From contig NZ_BONF01000029.1 of NCBI RefSeq assembly GCF_016862575.1, positions 62,001 to 126,000 of the forward strand: a stretch of 64,000 nucleotides of DNA, in the 5' to 3' direction. Below the pieces are notes generated by a model. The model did not search any database and was not told where the DNA came from. It saw only the letters and a program-made list of their open reading frames with translations. Position numbers and translations under genes: made by a program. Positions 4,362 to 63,614 of this stretch are shown piece after piece (position 1 is the stretch's first letter; every line of letters begins with the position of its first letter). This stretch comes from Catellatospora bangladeshensis (GTDB lineage Bacteria; Actinomycetota; Actinomycetes; Mycobacteriales; Micromonosporaceae).

Positions 4362-7300
4362 GGCTTGCTCCAGGTCGTGGTCGTAGTCGGGGGCGCGAGC
4401 ATCAGCAGCGAGGGCACCGTCTCGGGCGAGGCCAGGCGCAGCAGGCCGTAGCCGACGCCGGACAGGCCGGTCATCAGCTCGGGCGACGGATGGCCGGTCG
4501 GATTGGCCGAGCGCCAGCCGTAGGTCTGGCCGTCGTCGAGGATCGCCTCGGCGACGGCGGCCACGGTCGGGTCGGGCACGCCCGCGGCCAGCAGCAGGTC
4601 GAGGTTGCCCAGGTCGCCGTGGCACAGCGAGTGGTTACGCCCGAATCCGCCCGCCAGGGTCGTCCGCACCGCGACAGCGATCTCGGCGGTGAGCCGCTCG
4701 TGCTCGCCGCCGGGCACATCGGCCGGGCTGGACGGATACCCACCTGGGGCCGGGCGGAGCGATCGGGCGGCGCCGGTCGCGGACGCCGCCCCCTGCGGCA
4801 GTCCGGCCGGAGCGGCGCCGGGGCGGATGCCGAGCGCGGCGCGGATGCGCAGCCGGGACAGCCCGATGCCGGGGGCGCCGTGGCACCAGGTGAGGCTGAA
4901 CCGGCCGGGTTCACGCAGGTCGGCCCAGTTGCCGCGAGCCGGGTCGAAGAGGCTGCGGTCGTGGGCGAGGGCGGCCAGCGCGCCGTCGAGGTAGCGCTGC
5001 TGCCCGGTGGCGTGCCACATCGCCGCCAGCGCGGCGGCCTGGCCTGCGGTGCCGTGCGAGAAGCCGCCGAGGCGCGGCCCGTCCGGCGGCTGTAGGAGCA
5101 GGTCCGCAGCCCTGCGGGCCAGGGGAAACATCCGGTCGGTGTCGTCCCCCGACAGCAGCGCCAGTACGCAGCCTGCGGCGCCGTCGACGACGTCGAGCAC
5201 CGTCCCGGTCCCGATGAGGGTGTCCAGCCGGGCGGCGATCAGCTCGGCGGTCGTGCGGGCGGGCCGGTGGCCGAGGGCGGCCAGGTGGCCGTAGCAGTAG
5301 GACAGGCCGCTCCAGCCGGTGAACGCGCCGATCGACGTGCCCGCGACCGCCCGCTGGGCGATCCTGGCCGCCAGCCGCCCGGCGGCCCGGTCGGCCGTGT
5401 CGATGAACCGCTCCTCGCCGGTGTGGGCGCCGAGCGCGGCCAGGAACAGCGCGATGCCGGCGGTGCCGTCGTAGAGGTGGTCGGCGGCCCGGCCCACCTG
5501 CCAGCCGGTGCCCGCCGGGTTCAGGGCGAACCAGCCGTCGTCGTCGGACAGCTCGACGATCCGGTCACCGATCGCGGCGGCGGCGTCCAGCGCGCGCCGC
5601 CGCACCTTCGGCAGCGCCGATTCGGCGACGCCCGGCCGGGGCCCCGTCACCTGGACGGCGAGGTCGGGCAGCTGCCAGCGCACGATGGCATGCGGTGCGC
5701 CCGCCCCGTCGGCCTGGGCGGCGTACGCGGCACGGATCAGCCAGACCTGGCGGGCCAGGTCGGTGTCGCCCAGCCCGCGCAGCCGCCGATGCGCTTCGGC
5801 CAGCCCGCTGCGCACCAGCACGTCCGGCACCGTGTCGCCGGACCCGGTGCCCAGCCCGGTGGCACCGGCGCGGGCCGTGAAGCGCGGCACGTCCCCGGCG
5901 TCGAGGTCGGACCGTTCGGCGGCGACGAAGTCGCGCAGCCGCGGCAGCTGGGCCACGCCGCTCCACAGCCAGTCGAGCAGCCGGTCGCGGTCCAGGCCGT
6001 CGCGCAGGTGGTCGGTGTGCAGGGCGGCCTCGGCGAGCCTGCGGTAGGTGCGGGTGGGCCGCAGCACCACCCGGATCTCGTCGGCGGCGAACGCGGCCAG
6101 CGGGCCGTCCTCGGCTGCCAGCTCGGCGCGTGCTGCACGCAGCAGCGCGTAGGTCACCCGGAAGCCGTGCACGACGTCTTCGGCGTACCCGGCGAGGTCG
6201 ATGCCGGGGGCGGCGACGGCGTGGGTGTGCGCGGGGGCGAGTTCCAGCCGCATCAGGTCGGTGCCGACGCCTACCCACCGCGTGCAGCCGCAGGCCCGCC
6301 CGGCGGCCACGGCGTCGCCGGTCGGCAGGGCGCCCACGCCGAGCACGGAGTCCGCGACGGCGCTGCGCCGCTCGGTCACGGCAGGGGTGAACAGCGTCTC
6401 CAGGTCGATCGGCACCGGGTGCCCGCCGTGGGTGACGAGGTTCTCGTCGTGGAAGTCGGTGGCGCCCAGCGCGTACAGCAGCGCGAGCAGGCCGCCTCGG
6501 CGGCGGGCGTACGCCGCGGCGTCGCCGGTGGACGTGTCCGCCGGGAGGAACTCGGCCCAGCCGTAGCCCGGCCGGGCCACGACGGTGCAGGCGCGCAGGT
6601 CGGCGCCGCGCTCGTTCAGCCAGGTGACGAGGTCGGCGTAGCGCGCTTCGACCGCGACGTCGCGGGGCCGGTACACGACGGTGGTCCCGCTGCTGAACCG
6701 CGCGAGCAGCACGCGCCGCCCGCCGTGGTGCGGGTCGCCGGTCTCGTCGGCGGCGGTGAGCACGCCGAGCGGGGCGCCGCCGGTGAAGGTGTGCCGCAGC
6801 AGGGCGGCGTCGGCGGCCAGCCGGTCGAGCAGCTCGCAGGTGCGTACGGCCCAGCGGTCGGCCGTGCCCAGCACCTGGCGCGCCAGCACCGGGTACGCGG
6901 TGAGGAACGCCAGTGCCGCGGCGGGCTCGCGCAGGCGCGCGAAGAAGGTGTGGAAGCGCTCGGCCGGGTCGGCGGGCGGCTGCTGCTCGTGCAGCCGGGC
7001 GATGTTGAGTTCGAGCACGGCCGCCCGGCTCAGCTGCACGACCAGCTCGGACAGCAGGCCGGGCACGGTTACCGCGGCGACGGTGTCCGGGTCGAACGGC
7101 GCGTCCGGGGTGGCCGTGGCGAGCCGCCGGGCGTGCTCGGTGACCTGCCGGGTCGCGTGGGCGACCAGGGGCGCTGCGATCACCGCGGCGGCCGCCATCG
7201 GCCGGTCCGTGGAAGCCTCGAGCGGCAGGTCGGCCACCGGCCCGGCGTAGCGGTGGTGCAGGGCGGTGATCCAGCCGGGGTCCCCGCCGGCGCGGTGGCG

Positions 7301-56236: not shown

Positions 56237-56380
56237 TCACCTGCCGGCGGTGCGCTCCGGGGCCGGGGTGAGGCGGGGCCTGCGCCCGTATCCCTCGCAG
56301 TTGACGTACGAGTTCTTGACGTGGGCCGGGATGTGGTCGGGCGTGCTGGCCGCGACGGGCGCGGGGGTCAGGGAATGCAT
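56237..56380 (-). CDS. Short peptide A, candidate RiPP precursor (47 aa)
   Basis: A 47-residue peptide. Residues 15-28 read DHIPAHVKNSYVNC; the rest is Pro/Ala-rich before and Arg/Pro-rich after (RRPRLTPAP). GGAGG lies four bases before the ATG. Peptide B (60282) shares DHIPAHVKNSY, one downstream Cys and RRPxL; 28 of 29 bases of the block are identical between the genes. No signal peptide or membrane helix. The block may be an enzyme-recognition or modified region. The family is unknown to me. Confidence 0.8.
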   Translation of the reverse strand: MHSLTPAPVAASTPDHIPAHVKNSYVNCEGYGRRPRLTPAPERTAGR

Positions 56381-56432
56381 GGTTCCTCCGATCGACGGGT
56401 CGCCCGTACTGTGGCCGGTCTGACGGCCCGGC

Positions 56433-56464
56433 GGCCAGGGACCGCTGACCCGGTCTGGCGGGAC
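56433..56464. promoter_or_regulatory. 32-bp regulon box 1 (peptide A / histidine kinase)
   Basis: GGCCAGGGAC, 4 bases, GACCCGG, 4 bases, GCGGGAC. It lies 53 bp upstream of peptide A (minus) and 79 bp upstream of the kinase (plus). Copies with the same spacing are at 60508 and 61474. Confidence 0.75.
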
Positions 56465-56542
56465 CCCGGCCGCCTGGCTCAACGTGCCGCCGGATCCGGT
56501 CCGTTCGGCCGGTCCGGCACGGGTGCACAATGATCAGCTGTC

Positions 56543-58594
56543 ATGGCCGAGTCCTCCGCTCCCCTGCCGAGCCCGCCACGCCGTCGGCCGGCGGCTTGGA
56601 CGGTCGCGTCCGTGGTCGCCGTGCTGAGCGCCGCCGCCGTGGCCGGCTGGATCGCCGCGCAGCCGCCGATGACCCCCGAGCAGCTGTACGCGCTGGTCGA
56701 CCTCGCCGACGGCCTTGTCTACGGCGCGGTGGCCTGGCTGATCCTCGGGCGGCGGACGGGGCTGGTCGGCTGGATCGTCGCCGCGGCCGCGGTCGGCGGG
56801 GCGGTTGCGGCGCTGGGCACCCAGTGGGCGGCGCTGGCCGACCGGCATCCCGGGCTGTGGGCCCCGGCGCTGCTGACCGGCGCGCACGGCTGGGCCTGGG
56901 TGCCGGGGCTCTACGGGCTGCTGGTCCTGCTGCCGTGGCTGCTGCCGACCGGTGCCGCGCGACGGCGGCCGTGGACGGCCGGGCGGGTGCTGCGGGCGGG
57001 TGTGCTGGCCGCCGGTGCCTGCTGCGTGACCGCGGCGACGGCGGTGGCGATGACGGCGCCCGCGCCGTACGGCATCGTGCCGCTGTCCGGTCCGCGGCTG
57101 CACTGGATCCGGGCCGAGGTGCTCGGTCCGGTGTCGCAGTGGCTGGTGCCGCTGGGGTTCGCCGCGACCACCGGGGTGCTGGTGCGGCGCCGGGTCACCG
57201 ACCGGCCGCGACGGCACGGCCTGGGCTGGCTCGCCGTCGGCAGCGCCCTGCTCACGCTCGCGTTCGGCCTGTCCTACCTGCCGCAGCCGCTGGCCGAGCG
57301 GCTGCCCGCGCAGGCTCCGGCGCTGCTGATGCTCGCCTCGCAGCTGTTCTTTCCGGCGGCGGTGCTCGTCGTCGTGCTGCGCCAGCAGCTGTGGGGCATC
57401 GAGGTGGCGGTCCGGCGCACCCTGGTGTGGCTGCTGATGACCGCGGCGGTGATCGCCGCGTACACCGGTGGGGTGCTGCTGCTCGACCACCTGCTACCGG
57501 CCGGGTCCTATGCCCCGAAGGTGCTGGTCACCGCGGCGCTGGCGGCGGCGTTCCAGCCGGTGCGGCAGTGGGTGCAGCGCCGGGTCGACCGGCTCGTGCA
57601 CGGCGAGGCCCACGAGCCGCTGATGCGGCAGGTGGCACGCCGCCTGGGCAGCGCCGGCCCCGACCTGCACATGATCGACACGGTCGCCGCGGCGATCGCC
57701 TCGTCCCTGCGGCTGGAGCGGGTCACCATCTCCGTGCACGACGGCCGGGCGCGGCCCGAGCAGAGGGAAACGGGTGCCGCGCCGCCGATCCGCGTGCCGC
57801 TGGTCAGCGGGCAGCGTACGGTCGGCGAGCTGGTGGCCTGGCCGCGTACGGGCGAGCGGCTGGGCGGGCGGGCCGCTGCCGCGCTGGCCGACCTGGCCCC
57901 GGTGGCCGGTGCGGTGGTCGACCTGGTGGCGACGAACCGGGCGCTGGCCGGTTCCCGTAGCCGGCTGGCCGAGGCGCGCGACGAGGAGCGGCGGGCGCTG
58001 CGGCGGGACCTGCACGACGGGCTCGGCCCCGCGCTGAGCGGCATCGGCCTGGGCCTGGCCGCGACGCGGAACCTGCTGCACCGCGATCCGGCGGCGGCGG
58101 AGGCGCTGCTGGACCGGCTCGCCGAGGAGATGAGCCAGCGGGCCGAGTCGGTGCGGCACCTGGCGCGGGCGCTGCTGCCTGCCGACCTGGCCGACGGGCG
58201 CCTGGTTCCGGCCCTGCACACGCTGGCCGAGCGGTACGCGCTGGCCGGGCTCGACATGCGGGTGTGCGCCCCGGCCGAGCCGGCGCCGCTGCCGGGTCTG
58301 GTGGCCACCGCGGCGTACGGGGTGATCGCCGAGGCGGTCCGCAACGTGCACCGCCATGCGGGCGTCGGCGTCTGCGAGGTACGCATCGAACAGGATGAGG
58401 AGCTCAGGGTGACGGTCAGCGATCACGGCGGCGGGCCGCCGCAGGCGCGCTCGGCCGGGTTGGGCCTGCGGTCGATGCGGGAACGCGCCGAAGGCGTCGG
58501 CGCCACGCTGACGGTCGGCGCGACCATGGCCGGTGCGGTCCCGACCGGGACGACCGTGCGCCTGGTGGTGCCCGCGGTGGCGGTGGCGGCGTGA
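56543..58594 (+). CDS. Membrane histidine kinase with GAF-like region
   Basis: A 683-residue kinase. Eight to ten hydrophobic segments fill residues 15-335, a GAF-like stretch follows (about 360-460), then a coiled coil, the His box RRDLHDGLGPALSGIGLGL and an ATPase domain (VRNVHRHAGVG, DHGGGPPQARSAGLGLRSMRERAEGVG). It should signal to the regulator that overlaps its stop. It is divergent from peptide A across box 1. It could sense the mature peptide or its precursor at the membrane; that is inferred from position. Confidence 0.9.
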   Translation: MAESSAPLPSPPRRRPAAWTVASVVAVLSAAAVAGWIAAQPPMTPEQLYALVDLADGLVYGAVAWLILGRRTGLVGWIVAAAAVGGAVAALGTQWAALADRHPGLWAPALLTGAHGWAWVPGLYGLLVLLPWLLPTGAARRRPWTAGRVLRAGVLAAGACCVTAATAVAMTAPAPYGIVPLSGPRLHWIRAEVLGPVSQWLVPLGFAATTGVLVRRRVTDRPRRHGLGWLAVGSALLTLAFGLSYLPQPLAERLPAQAPALLMLASQLFFPAAVLVVVLRQQLWGIEVAVRRTLVWLLMTAAVIAAYTGGVLLLDHLLPAGSYAPKVLVTAALAAAFQPVRQWVQRRVDRLVHGEAHEPLMRQVARRLGSAGPDLHMIDTVAAAIASSLRLERVTISVHDGRARPEQRETGAAPPIRVPLVSGQRTVGELVAWPRTGERLGGRAAAALADLAPVAGAVVDLVATNRALAGSRSRLAEARDEERRALRRDLHDGLGPALSGIGLGLAATRNLLHRDPAAAEALLDRLAEEMSQRAESVRHLARALLPADLADGRLVPALHTLAERYALAGLDMRVCAPAEPAPLPGLVATAAYGVIAEAVRNVHRHAGVGVCEVRIEQDEELRVTVSDHGGGPPQARSAGLGLRSMRERAEGVGATLTVGATMAGAVPTGTTVRLVVPAVAVAA

Positions 58595-59244
58595 GCGCGC
58601 CGATCCGTGTCGTGGTGGTCGACGACCATCCGGTGTTCCGGCTGGGCATGACGGCGCTGCTGTCCACGCTCGACGGCATCGAGTGCGTCGGCGACGCCGC
58701 CGACGTCGACACCGCCCTGGCGGTGGTCGACGCGGCACGGCCGCAGGTGGTGCTGATGGACCTGCACTTCCAGCACCGGTCGGGTATCGAGGCGACCAGG
58801 ATCGTTACCGAGCGGCATCCCGGCGTGCGGGTCCTCGTGGTGACCATGATGGACGACGACGACTCGCTGTTCGCGGCGCTGCGCGCCGGTGCCCGGGGCT
58901 ACCTGCTCAAGGAGGCGGGCCCGGCCGAGGTCGAGCGGGCGATCCGGGCCGTGGCGCACGGCGAGCTGGTGGTCGGGGCGGCGCTGGCCGGGCAGGCCGC
59001 CGGGCTGCTCACCTCGGGTTTCGGCGCGGCGCCGCTGCCGTTCCCGCAGCTGACCGACCGGGAGCGGGAGGTGCTGCACCTGGTCGCGCGGGGCCTGGAC
59101 AACGCGGCGGTGGCGTACCGCCTCGGGCTGAGTCCCAAGACGGTGCGCAACAACCTGTCCAACATCCTCGTCAAGATCCAGGCGAGCAGCCGTGGTGAGG
59201 CGATCGCCCGCGCTCGCGACGCCGGGATGGGCGGCCGGGACTGA
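58591..59244 (+). CDS. NarL-type response regulator
   Basis: A 217-residue regulator. The receiver has VVDDHP and phospho-Asp in VLMDLHFQHRSG; the HTH is LTDREREVLHLVARGLDNAAVAYRLGLSPKTVRNNLSNILVKIQ. It starts at a GTG overlapping the kinase stop. NarL-type proteins bind paired GGGAC-like half-sites in some cases, so the three regulon boxes are candidate targets. Confidence 0.92.
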   Translation: MSAPIRVVVVDDHPVFRLGMTALLSTLDGIECVGDAADVDTALAVVDAARPQVVLMDLHFQHRSGIEATRIVTERHPGVRVLVVTMMDDDDSLFAALRAGARGYLLKEAGPAEVERAIRAVAHGELVVGAALAGQAAGLLTSGFGAAPLPFPQLTDREREVLHLVARGLDNAAVAYRLGLSPKTVRNNLSNILVKIQASSRGEAIARARDAGMGGRD

Positions 59245-59262
59245 CCGCCCGTCCCGGTGCCG

Positions 59263-60285
59263 CTACTCGTCGCTGAGCGCCGCGGGCGGTGTCGCGATCC
59301 GGTGGTTGGCGCCGGGCACCGCGAAGTGGTGGAACGTGACGGTGGCGCTCACGTCGAGGGCGCGCACCCAGTGCCACCAGCCGACGGGGATGAACAGCGC
59401 CTGACCGGGCTCCAGCACCGTCTCCAGGACCGTCGCCTCGCTGTAGCGCGGGTGGCGGGCCGGGTCGGGGTGGTCGGCGTCGACCTCGCTGAAGGTTCCG
59501 CCGCGCGGGTACACCAGGTGCCGCTCGTAGGAGGGCACGAGCCGCACGTGTTTGCGGCCCATCACCTGGCACAGCAGCACGTTGCTGTTGTCGAAGTGCA
59601 GCGGGGTGAGGGTGCCGGCCGGGCCGAGCAGCAGGTGGGCCCGGCGCGTGCCCTCGGCCGGGTCGATGAGCCCGGCCGGTGGCCGTACGTCGTCGGCCAG
59701 CGCGGCCAGCGCGCCGGGCCAGTTGCTGTTGCGGGGAACCATGTAGTAGTCGTTGGTGGGCGTGCCCGACCCGACCAGCCGCAGGTAGTCGCCGAACGTC
59801 ATGGTGGTGCGGTGCCGGTCGTACTGCCACGCGTGGTCCGGGTTGGCCTCGCGGCCGGTCATCACCTCGACCTCGGCGTCGCCGCATCTGCGGGCCAGCT
59901 CGTCGAGGGTCCAGGAGCGGGCCGGCCAGTCGTCGCACAGCCCGTCGAGCACCACCGGCCGGTGACCGAAGTAGTAGCGGGAGAAGAACTCGGCCGGGTC
60001 GACGTCACGCCGCCGGTCGAGGTCGCGCCCGCCGTCGCCGTCGCGCAGCGCCCGGTACACGTCCAGGATGGACTCCAGCCAGTCGTAGCGCAGCGCCAGG
60101 CGGCGGCAGACCTGGAAGTACGGGTGCTCGGTGAGCCGGGCCAGCTCACGGTCCAGCTCTGCCGGGTCGATCGACTGGGCCAGGGCGGCCGAGCGTACTT
60201 GCTCGACCGGGGCGCCGAGGGCGAGGTTCTCGGCGAGCCAGCCGCGCCAGCCGTCATCGAGGCGCACCGTCGCGACGGCGGTCAT
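59263..60285 (-). CDS. JmjC / cupin-8 type Fe(II)-2-oxoglutarate hydroxylase
   Basis: A 340-residue protein. The C-terminal jelly roll (about residues 95-325) has metal ligands His230 and Asp232 in TPLHFDNSN and His305 in PVGWWHWV. PRNSNWPG and GRKHVRLVPSYERHLVYP match cupin-8 peptidyl hydroxylases, which hydroxylate Asn, Asp, Lys or Arg of proteins. Residues 1-85 form a separate helical domain that might hold a substrate peptide. Its ATG overlaps the stop of peptide B (ATGA), so enzyme and peptide are made together. Confidence 0.9.
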   Translation of the reverse strand: MTAVATVRLDDGWRGWLAENLALGAPVEQVRSAALAQSIDPAELDRELARLTEHPYFQVCRRLALRYDWLESILDVYRALRDGDGGRDLDRRRDVDPAEFFSRYYFGHRPVVLDGLCDDWPARSWTLDELARRCGDAEVEVMTGREANPDHAWQYDRHRTTMTFGDYLRLVGSGTPTNDYYMVPRNSNWPGALAALADDVRPPAGLIDPAEGTRRAHLLLGPAGTLTPLHFDNSNVLLCQVMGRKHVRLVPSYERHLVYPRGGTFSEVDADHPDPARHPRYSEATVLETVLEPGQALFIPVGWWHWVRALDVSATVTFHHFAVPGANHRIATPPAALSDE

Positions 60286-60431
60286 CGCGGCTGCCCGGAG
60301 GTGGCGGGCGGCGCCGACAGCATGGGCCGGCGCACCACTTCGTTGCAGGTCGGGTAGGAGTTCTTGACGTGCGCCGGGATGTGGTCGACGTGTTCGGCCG
60401 GGCCGGCACCGGGGACGGGGGTGGTGGTCAT
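60282..60431 (-). CDS. Short peptide B, candidate RiPP precursor (49 aa)
   Basis: A 49-residue peptide. Residues 16-29 read DHIPAHVKNSYPTC and the tail has NEVVRRPMLSAPPATSG. GGAAG precedes the ATG. Against peptide A the shared block is DHIPAHVKNSY-x2-C, with RRPxL following after four or five residues. It is translationally coupled to the hydroxylase, the classic layout of a precursor with its modifying enzyme. Possible modified residues are Asn24, Lys23 or His21. Cleavage site and product are unknown. Confidence 0.82.
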   Translation of the reverse strand: MTTTPVPGAGPAEHVDHIPAHVKNSYPTCNEVVRRPMLSAPPATSGQPR

Positions 60432-61671: not shown

Positions 61672-62409
61672 TCAGCAGAAGGGCAGCGGGAACAGGTGTA
61701 CGCAGGCTCGCTGGATGTCGGCGGTCAGCGCGGGGGCGCCGTCCACGGGCGCGGGGTCTTCGGGCGTCGGCTGGATCCCACCGGCGGCGATCGCGTCCAG
61801 GGCGGCCATCCCGGCTTCGTCGATGGTGCCGAAGACGGTGTAGTTGGGCCGCAGGATCGAGTCGGCGTAGACCAGGAAGAACTGGCTGCCGTTGGTGTTC
61901 GGTCCGGCGTTGGCCATGGCCAGGGTGCCGCGTGGGTAGTAGACGCGGTCGGGCCGGTCGGGCACGGGCGGCAGGTCGGTGGGCAGCTCGTCCTTGTACT
62001 GGTAGCCGGGGCCGCCGCTGCCGGTGCCGGACGGGTCGCCGCACTGCAGCACCTTCAGCGTCGGGTACGCCGTCAGCCGGTGGCAGCTGGTGTTGTTGTA
62101 GAACCGGTGCAGGATCAGGTGCTCGAAGCTCTGCACGGTGCAGGGCGCCTTGGCGGCGTCCAGCGTCATCGTGATCTTGCCGTGGCTGGTGTTGAGCACG
62201 ACGTGGGTGTTCCAGGTCTGCTGGTGACGCGGGTCGAAGGGCAGCCCCACCGGCCGGGCCGGCGGGTCGTCCGGGGTTTCGGCGTACTGGCAGGGGCCCT
62301 TGGTGGTCCGGGGCGCCGGGTCGGCCGCCGCAGGGGTGGCGGCGGCCGTGGCGGACAGCAGGCCGGTGACGAGTCCGGCGACGGTGAACCGGATCAATTT
62401 GTTTCGCAT
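61672..62409 (-). CDS. Secreted cyclophilin-type peptidyl-prolyl isomerase
   Basis: A 245-residue secreted protein with a signal peptide of about 29 residues (cut after TPAAA). The cyclophilin core has FYNNTSCHRLTAYPTLKVLQCGDPSGTGSGGPGYQYKDE, GTLAMANAGPNTNGSQFFLVYADS and YTVFGTIDEAG. It should speed proline isomerisation outside the cell. The tail after the core is Pro-rich and ends in Cys. Several Cys suggest disulfides. It lies near the peptide genes but no shared box was seen. Confidence 0.92.
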   Translation of the reverse strand: MRNKLIRFTVAGLVTGLLSATAAATPAAADPAPRTTKGPCQYAETPDDPPARPVGLPFDPRHQQTWNTHVVLNTSHGKITMTLDAAKAPCTVQSFEHLILHRFYNNTSCHRLTAYPTLKVLQCGDPSGTGSGGPGYQYKDELPTDLPPVPDRPDRVYYPRGTLAMANAGPNTNGSQFFLVYADSILRPNYTVFGTIDEAGMAALDAIAAGGIQPTPEDPAPVDGAPALTADIQRACVHLFPLPFC

Positions 62410-62481: not shown

Positions 62482-63546
62482 TCAGCCCCAGGGCAGCCGG
62501 ACGACCTGCGCGGCGTAGGAGAGCCCCGCGCCGAAGCCCACCAGCAACGCCGTCCCGCCTCGGGGGACTTCACCGTCACGCCGCATCCGCTCCATCGCCA
62601 GCGGCACCGACGCGGCGGAGGTGTTGCCCATCGCGGCGATGTCGCGGGCCACCGGCACACCCTCAGGGAGCTTGAGCGCTTTGACCATCGCGTCGATGAT
62701 CCGCATGTTGGCCTGGTGCGGGATGAAGGCGTCGAGCTCGTCCACGGTGATGCCCGCGGCCTGCAGCGCCCTGTTCGCCACGGGCACCATCTCGTAGGAG
62801 GCCCAGCGGAACACCTGCTGCCCGGACATCTGGATGAAGGGCCGCGGACCGGTGGGGTCCTCCATGAACGCCTTCCAGTCGCGGGTCTGGCCGATCACGC
62901 CGTACTGGCTGCCGTCCGCGCCCCACACGACCGGCCCGATGCCAGGCCGCCCAGCCGGGCCGATCACCACTGCGCCCGCTCCGTCCCCGAAGATGAAGGC
63001 CGTCGTCCGGTCCTGCGGGTCGATGAAGTCGGAGATCCGCTCCGCACCGATGACCAGGACATGACCGGCGCTGCCGCCCTGCACCAGGTCCCGGCCGAGC
63101 GCCACCCCGTGGCAGAATCCGGCGCACCCGGCCGAGATGTCGAACGCCGCGGCGTTGACGGCTCCGAGCTGGTGCGCGATCAGCGCGGCGGCCGACGGAG
63201 TCTGCTCGAGGTGGGTCACCGTGGCCAGCACCACGCAGCCCACGTCGGATGCGGCGATCCCGGCGTCGGCCAGCGCCGCGGCAGCCGCCTGGACGGACAT
63301 GGCCACCAGGGTCTCGTCGGGCTCGGCCCAGCGGCGTTCCGCGATCCCGGTCCGCGTTCTGATCCATTCGTCGGTCGAGTCGACCGAGGTGCAGAGTTCC
63401 TCGTTCGTGACGACGCGGCGCGGCCGGTACGCCCCGAGGCCGATGATCTGGGCGTGCGGCGCCCGGCCGGGAGCGGCGATCTCGCGGCCTGCCGGAGCCG
63501 GCACCGGCTCACTGTGGATGATCTCCGCTGGCGTCTGGGGTGGCAT
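62482..63546 (-). CDS. Beta-ketoacyl-ACP synthase III (FabH type)
   Basis: A 354-residue thiolase-fold enzyme. The Cys-His-Asn triad is in ISAGCAGFCHG (Cys141), FIPHQANMRI and GNTSAASVPLAMERM. It condenses an acyl-CoA with malonyl-ACP to start fatty acid or polyketide chains. It is not in a fab operon, so it may be a dedicated starter enzyme or a spare FabH. AGGAG lies nine bases before the ATG at 63546; a GTG at 63567 is less likely. About 30 extra residues precede the fold. Confidence 0.92.
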   Translation of the reverse strand: MPPQTPAEIIHSEPVPAPAGREIAAPGRAPHAQIIGLGAYRPRRVVTNEELCTSVDSTDEWIRTRTGIAERRWAEPDETLVAMSVQAAAAALADAGIAASDVGCVVLATVTHLEQTPSAAALIAHQLGAVNAAAFDISAGCAGFCHGVALGRDLVQGGSAGHVLVIGAERISDFIDPQDRTTAFIFGDGAGAVVIGPAGRPGIGPVVWGADGSQYGVIGQTRDWKAFMEDPTGPRPFIQMSGQQVFRWASYEMVPVANRALQAAGITVDELDAFIPHQANMRIIDAMVKALKLPEGVPVARDIAAMGNTSAASVPLAMERMRRDGEVPRGGTALLVGFGAGLSYAAQVVRLPWG

Positions 63547-63614
63547 GGCTGACGACTCCTGGTTCACGATGAGGGTCGCCTACGATACGCGGCCGCCGAC
63601 GTGATCCGGACCCA

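Follow-up and report, generated by a model that had tools for sequence, protein, structure and literature searches.

A predicted JmjC oxygenase and adjacent short peptides, its candidate substrates, recur together in Micromonosporaceae and myxobacteria

JmjC hydroxylases are well studied in animals, where JMJD7 and FIH, for example, act as protein hydroxylases; to our knowledge, dedicated substrates of bacterial JmjC hydroxylases are rarely known. Among ribosomally synthesized and post-translationally modified peptides (RiPPs), follower-type and multicore precursors are characterized by a C-terminal recognition segment and by repeated units, respectively. Human JMJD5 (KDM8) is described in PMC5862942 as an arginyl C-3 hydroxylase with RPS6 and RCCD1 as substrates, which binds the arginine through E238, Y243, W310 and S318, and 2-oxoglutarate (2OG) through K336 and Y272. 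The JmjC or cupin-like hydroxylases PbsQ, BpmG and BipG of biphenomycin-type clusters act on ornithine (Orn) (PMC12257519, PMC12707348), and a survey of RiPP recognition elements (RREs) describes JmjC proteins fused to RRE-like domains (PF08007) in RiPP-like contexts (PMC12710340). The locus considered here lies in a stretch of 64,000 nucleotides from Catellatospora bangladeshensis (contig NZ_BONF01000029.1, positions 62,001 to 126,000; the window in the following), in which two short peptide genes accompany the gene of a predicted JmjC/cupin-8 Fe(II)/2OG oxygenase. The pairing of peptide and enzyme, met in soil bacteria of two phyla far apart, looks real and recurrent; the peptides are, judging from sequence comparison, probably dedicated substrates of the adjacent JMJD5-like oxygenase, in a minimal, RiPP-like hydroxylation by a single enzyme with a C-terminal recognition tail.

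The two peptide genes and the oxygenase gene are all on the minus strand. Peptide A (47 aa; 56237..56380; assigned by reading of open reading frames (ORFs) and by family membership) contains a single core unit, with the core block DHIPAHVKNSYVNC at residues 15-28 (56297..56338), and its ATG is preceded by GGAGG, a ribosome-binding-like sequence. Peptide B (49 aa; 60282..60431; assigned by ORF reading) carries the block DHIPAHVKNSYPTC at residues 16-29 (60345..60386); both blocks are delimited by sequence and conservation. The TGA of peptide B overlaps the ATG of the enzyme (340 aa; clade C1; 59263..60285) as ATGA. Both contain the stretch DHIPAHVKNSY with a Cys three positions beyond its Tyr, and the motif RRPxL; peptides and overlap are thus present in the sequence as the original prediction had described them. 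Neither peptide matches a Pfam family, nor do seven peptides match an NCBIfam family (both at E up to 1).

In Micromonosporaceae, an enzyme query finds C1 enzymes in 18 of 300 sampled genomes, at 19 sites, and at every one of these a motif peptide abuts the enzyme. The window's own genome contains a second, diverged enzyme-peptide pair (L004), and within the window's genus the enzyme occurs in 2 of 11 genomes (the window's own and G006). The peptide B query matches 17 of the 300 genomes at E 0.005; 14 are left after dropping three weak matches (L024-L026 in G022, G024 and G235), which have no V/I-K/R-x-x-Y/F-x-x-C open frame on either strand, as is likewise the case for open frames at L003, L005, L007, L008 and L010. 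At 13 of 14 sites fetched from 13 genomes other than the window's, a cupin with 71-83% identity directly follows the peptide. The enzyme query adds G006, G045, G101 and G125, whose diverged peptides (e.g. DSIPAHVRSNYVEC) escaped the peptide search. Two motif-like strings were also encountered, VRRSYSAC at the weak match L006 (E 0.455) and HVRSSYGTC at L054, antisense to a longer ORF in a genome (G537) in which no C1-clade enzyme was found; L074 was set aside as an unrelated cupin. The peptide profile matches 2 of 394 genomes sampled across Actinomycetes (the window's own and G537), as does the enzyme profile (the window's own and G584, with 34% identity and without peptide); the pair is rare or absent outside Micromonosporaceae in this sample. 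Plasmids yielded no match at E 1e-40.

A scan of genomes from named species with the enzyme alignment returns 18 loci: 8 from Micromonospora, 9 from Myxococcota and 1 unrelated. Among the Myxococcota enzymes, five share 57-60% identity with that of the window, and each of the five has a motif peptide immediately upstream of it on the other strand. Across Myxococcia, the C1 clade is present in 48 of 145 genomes, at 50 sites; 45 of these show a divergent motif peptide, whose core lies 129-260 nt ahead of where the enzyme match begins (the pattern fixes V/I, K/R, Y/F and C, so that peptides losing one of them would be missed), two lie at contig ends, and three have no motif peptide. The genes are thus on the same strand and abutting in actinobacteria, and divergent in myxobacteria; since the layouts differ between the phyla, rearrangement has not separated the pair. 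A short encoded precursor clustered with a modifying enzyme, as is typical of RiPPs, is in this way found at 19/19 and 45/50 sites. The original prediction had proposed to look for motif peptides beside cupin-8 genes in other genomes, and with such linkage recurring at every family site and in a second phylum, the precursor-enzyme pairing stands; the linkage is much wider than the window alone could show. A quick tree (midpoint root, order within the group unresolved, none of these supports starred) places the actinobacterial C1 enzymes inside myxobacterial C1, where they group with G702 and the Corallococcus type at a support of 94, which suggests a transfer of C1 from myxobacteria to actinobacteria.

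The core of the peptides has the consensus V-[K/R]-x-x-Y-x-x-C. Altogether, 66 distinct peptides of this kind (A peptides) comprise 82 units, with one unit in 57, two in 2 and three in 7 of them; single-unit peptides paired with enzymes have 47-66 aa, and in several Micromonospora precursors, two or three units follow each other head-to-tail, a unit of core plus tail measuring about 27-35 residues. No leader common to the A peptides is apparent on comparison. The Lys position is K in 79 units and R in 3, as found with search patterns that allowed only K/R; the following residue is N in 53 of the 82 and varies between N, G, S and T. Within a set of 31 units, gathered with a pattern that fixes H, P, H, V and K and leaves the remainder free, Tyr and Cys are each conserved in 31/31, and the residue after Lys is N in 21, G in 9 and T in 1; where V-N precedes the Cys, a Tyr is found three residues after it (19/20), which is the case for P-T in 1/9. 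The two His of the block are not kept in all relatives, the one before Val being replaced by Asn in some. From the Asn, Lys and His that the original prediction had considered as targets of hydroxylation, the Lys is therefore retained; His and Asn vary, and the N/G/S/T variation disfavors the Asn.

The peptide genes are under purifying selection. The ratio of non-synonymous to synonymous substitution rates (dN/dS) is 0.30 between close relatives of the A peptides (63 pairs, non-independent), an estimate that replaces the saturated pooled value of 0.60 over far diverged units, and the codons of the core differ at synonymous third positions. Counted in six frames over 89 partly overlapping loci of at least 6 kb, the window among them, the strict core has 69 occurrences at no more than 700 bp from a JmjC/cupin-8 enzyme of this kind (251 kb of sequence) and 3 in the remaining 878 kb; these three are all family peptides, namely peptide A, the second peptide of L042, and L039.

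A second kind of peptide accompanies the sister clades C2 and C3, whose enzymes (about 43% identity) are mostly found in tandem in myxobacteria. A small gene between C2 and C3, divergent from C3, encodes the core (I)VPNP, in one to three copies across 29 distinct peptides. It is present in 26/26 C2+C3 pairs examined, these being the pairs among the loci that were read, a subset of those listed; dN/dS between IVPNP peptides is 0.22 (35 pairs, non-independent). Examples are found at L070 (5997-6239, minus strand), L072 (6009-6200, minus strand), and between the tandem C2/C3 genes of the myxobacterial loci L204-L223, L235-L237 and L239; L164 combines C1, C2 and C3 with both peptide kinds. Altogether, 39 IVPNP occurrences are near an enzyme and 2 far, the far ones both without tail by eye, and neither peptide kind is seen in 14 rows of enzymes further removed (33-56% identical to reference enzymes; two on the same contig, and L229 near a contig end). 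In a metagenome-assembled genome of Myxococcales (L073), a distant JmjC gene has upstream of it a Pro-rich ORF with a hydrophobic stretch (4370-4996, plus strand) that contains IVPPMVPPDP, a faint likeness to IVPNP peptides.

A peptides and IVPNP peptides both end in an Arg/Pro-rich segment, as in RRRPLPPPSVPPL and RTRPTPPPTTPPL. A regular expression for this tail, composed after tails had been seen, finds 36 of the 43 entries in the list of myxobacterial A peptides (two of the seven entries that it misses belong in reality to actinobacteria) and 22 of 29 IVPNP peptides (the 7 misses carry the tail with longer spacing, by eye), over a background of 4 matches in 2015 small ORFs.

The enzyme is assigned by Pfam (Cupin_8, E 4.2e-37, and JmjC), profile and fold searches, alignment, and a structure model. 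The predicted iron ligands H230, D232 and H305, which the original prediction had read as an intact triad, are invariant in 24/24 aligned enzymes, as are the 2OG lysine at H+15 (K245) and Y181; by alignment, the latter two map to K336 and Y272 of JMJD5, the placement of the Tyr being uncertain by one residue. Among solved structures, JMJD5 ranks first in the profile search (E 2.6e-31) and again in the fold search (E 1.9e-21, about 29% identity), followed by JMJD7, TYW5 and FIH. FIH, JMJD7, TYW5 and JMJD6 belong to the same fold class with lower scores, and their substrates differ from the present peptides. The structure model (pLDDT 86, pTM 0.77) shows four helices at residues 11-82 and then the JmjC barrel, which bears out the extra helical N-terminal domain of the original prediction; the sequence match to JMJD5 begins only at residue 99-100, leaving this domain outside. 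A reading of it as an RRE, as in the JmjC fusions of PMC12710340, is not supported, its modelled four helices not having the β3-α3 winged-helix order of RREs. The HxD..H motif and the 2OG lysine match JMJD5, and T227 aligns with its S318. The 2OG-binding Asn at H+6 of JMJD5 (N327), however, is Val or Ile in the C1 enzymes compared, and a JMJD5-type Arg site is not found in the alignment: Y243 falls at about N148, and with E238 at M142 and W310 at L219 the Arg pocket is not preserved as such. E140, near M142, is invariant in the 24 enzymes.

JMJD5 further differs in its substrates, which are RPS6 and RCCD1 rather than dedicated peptides (PMC5862942). The biphenomycin-type clusters are alike in that a JmjC or cupin-like 2OG oxygenase acts on a basic side chain of a ribosomal precursor, a relation that is predicted here (PMC12257519, PMC12707348). 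There, however, the oxygenase is described as one step beside an MNIO, a partner protein, an arginase, a B12-radical SAM enzyme and a TldD-type protease, whereas here it is the only modifying enzyme seen recurring; MNIO, arginase and B12-radical SAM proteins are absent from 19 neighbor proteins scanned with Pfam, a subset of the neighbors. The biphenomycin precursors studied in PMC12257519 have the motif FHAFRF, the present ones a core of VKxxYxxC or IVPNP. Among the open-access literature matches listed, none describes these peptides or their JmjC pairing, or a RiPP class that has such cores or whose sole modifying enzyme is a JmjC protein; the only match to KIVPNP, in a scorpion venom transcriptome, is taken as chance.

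Each unit consists of the V-[K/R]-x-x-Y-x-x-C core and, after it, the Arg/Pro/Leu-rich tail. For the mechanism, we propose that the tail would serve for recognition from the C-terminal side, as a follower, perhaps through contact with the N-terminal helical domain of the enzyme, and the catalytic domain would then hydroxylate the core using Fe(II), O2 and 2OG. Such a C-terminal segment, with its predicted recognition role, and the repeated units resemble follower-type and multicore RiPPs. The likeliest target would be the Lys (Arg in 3/82 units), with Tyr, Cys and Val also possible; it is the first candidate because JMJD5 hydroxylates Arg and BipG hydroxylates Orn, and because it is seen alternating only with Arg, within patterns that allowed just these two. 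As there is no common leader and each tandem unit has the full consensus, the units would be modified independently, and their number (1-3) would thus be free to change. C2 and C3 would act likewise on the IVPNP core. Like the substrate relation, the hydroxylation, its target and the function of the tail, any later processing and a control of the genes by adjacent regulators are inferred; the product may either be exported, in the usual RiPP sense, or be an intracellular oxygen- or iron-dependent switch.

The regulators beside the pair vary with the lineage. In the window, the plus strand between the genes of peptides A and B encodes a sensor histidine kinase (HisKA_3/HATPase_c, with hydrophobic segments ahead of the kinase domain; 56543..58594), from which peptide A diverges, and a NarL/LuxR-type response regulator (58591..59244), both assigned by domain search. 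Their position is as originally predicted, but their role as a core component is rejected: of 14 loci with a cupin that were checked, the window among them, just 8 have the two genes, which are therefore an optional neighbor. Cupin, kinase and regulator alone recur in more than 4 of 15 loci, counting composition-filtered ORFs; genes like those for an ABC transporter and a TetR-like protein to the left of peptide A are absent from the clusters common to more than 4 loci, a weak criterion that covers only these filtered ORFs. In the Micromonospora loci L040, L045, L048 and L049, an ORF of about 1050-1130 aa lies between pair and kinase, without Pfam match in L045, the copy tested. Further genes near the system in the window belong to ordinary families, a cyclophilin-type prolyl isomerase (61672-62409, minus strand) and a KAS III (FabH-like) gene (62482-63567, minus strand).

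In myxobacteria, the pair is flanked by genes for an extracytoplasmic function (ECF) sigma factor (21/24 loci), a CHAT-domain protein (21/24) and a zf-HC2/TPR protein (18/24), for example in L066 (3947-4501 and 6027-8777, both minus strand) and L159 (5948-12184). This recurrence may reflect synteny, and none of the three is recognized among six scanned neighbors of L164 and L165; they are therefore not claimed as parts of the system. The CHAT-domain protein is the sole recurrent protease-like neighbor and confined to myxobacteria; its domain has a caspase-like protease fold, and it may have a processing role there. L164 has a GerE-domain protein adjoining the pair. No RRE was found recurring beside the pair.

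It is very improbable that the peptides are coincidental neighbors or spurious ORFs, so that a cupin gene would merely adjoin chance frames or repeats at the DNA level. Many such frames arise in GC-rich genomes, and motif-like strings do occur by chance, as at L006 and antisense at L054; the linkage, however, extends over two phyla and two layouts, the strict core is almost confined to enzyme loci, a ribosome-binding-like sequence precedes peptide A, and a dN/dS of 0.2-0.3 with synonymous third-position variation in the core is that of coding sequence. A real peptide could still be a partner of the enzyme rather than its substrate, such as an inhibitor, an activator or a metal-delivery peptide whose Cys, Tyr and Lys contact the enzyme. 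A bound ligand, too, could be strictly paired and carry a short conserved motif, and the His- and Cys-bearing units of Micromonospora could hold metal; yet the His residues are lost in several relatives, and the variable number of units suits substrates better than a stoichiometric partner, so that we regard this as improbable. The nearest characterized JmjC enzyme, JMJD5, is moreover a protein hydroxylase (PMC5862942). An intracellular switch is less easily dismissed, although we still consider it unlikely: the peptide would be a small regulatory protein responsive to oxygen, iron or 2OG, its hydroxylation altering regulator binding as in FIH-HIF, with the adjacent regulators forming the circuit. 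Consistent with this, no export genes recur, the enzyme belongs to the FIH-like fold class, and regulators adjoin the pair according to lineage (kinase and response regulator, ECF sigma factor, zf-HC2/TPR protein, and the GerE-domain protein of L164). The presence of the locus in a third of Myxococcia genomes (48/145; all 48 of at least 9.0 Mb, though two or more of the listed genomes exceeding 9 Mb lack it) also resembles physiology more than an accessory antibiotic. No single regulator is conserved, however, the myxobacterial gene order may be plain synteny, and tandem units with two unrelated cores read more easily as the evolution of precursors.

Several observations weigh against the peptides as dedicated substrates with a C-terminal recognition tail. 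The alignment of the Arg-binding Glu238 of JMJD5 with a Met makes Lys or Arg uncertain as target, and V and K are invariant in part because the search patterns for the peptides prescribed them. Three myxobacterial C1-type enzymes (L147, L150, L151) have no motif peptide nearby, although for two of them the genome's other copy has one; conversely, the 17-kb stretch that holds the peptide of L039 contains no cupin, this being a second, orphan peptide in a genome with a normal pair elsewhere. The enzyme frame is split at 2 of the 19 family sites, L042 (G019) and L092/L095 (G045), which may be decay or sequence error; the peptide genes stay open beside it. The tail expression matches just 1 of 22 peptides listed as actinobacterial, in which the tail is shorter, and the Pro-rich tails may be convergent. 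Finally, no transporter was seen recurring in the part of the neighbors that was scanned, and the peptides have no signal peptide evident by eye; a secreted product is therefore not indicated.

Taken as substrates, the peptides provide each enzyme with a small candidate, so that substrate, target residue and recognition rule are testable with two small genes. If the reading is true, the peptides represent a leaderless, modular hydroxylation tag and two new precursor families. A broader proposal, to which we give slightly less than an even chance, is that of a two-gene class in which a FIH/JMJD5-like oxygenase is combined with its own tiny substrate, with a common Pro-rich follower and exchangeable cores, and which has crossed between Myxococcota and Actinomycetota; C2 and C3 may act in turn. 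This would constitute either a RiPP class with JmjC hydroxylation as its one defining feature, or a bacterial counterpart of oxygen or iron sensing through hydroxylation. If the reading is true, Myxococcus and Corallococcus, genera amenable to laboratory culture and study, also offer a conserved locus with a so far putative purpose.

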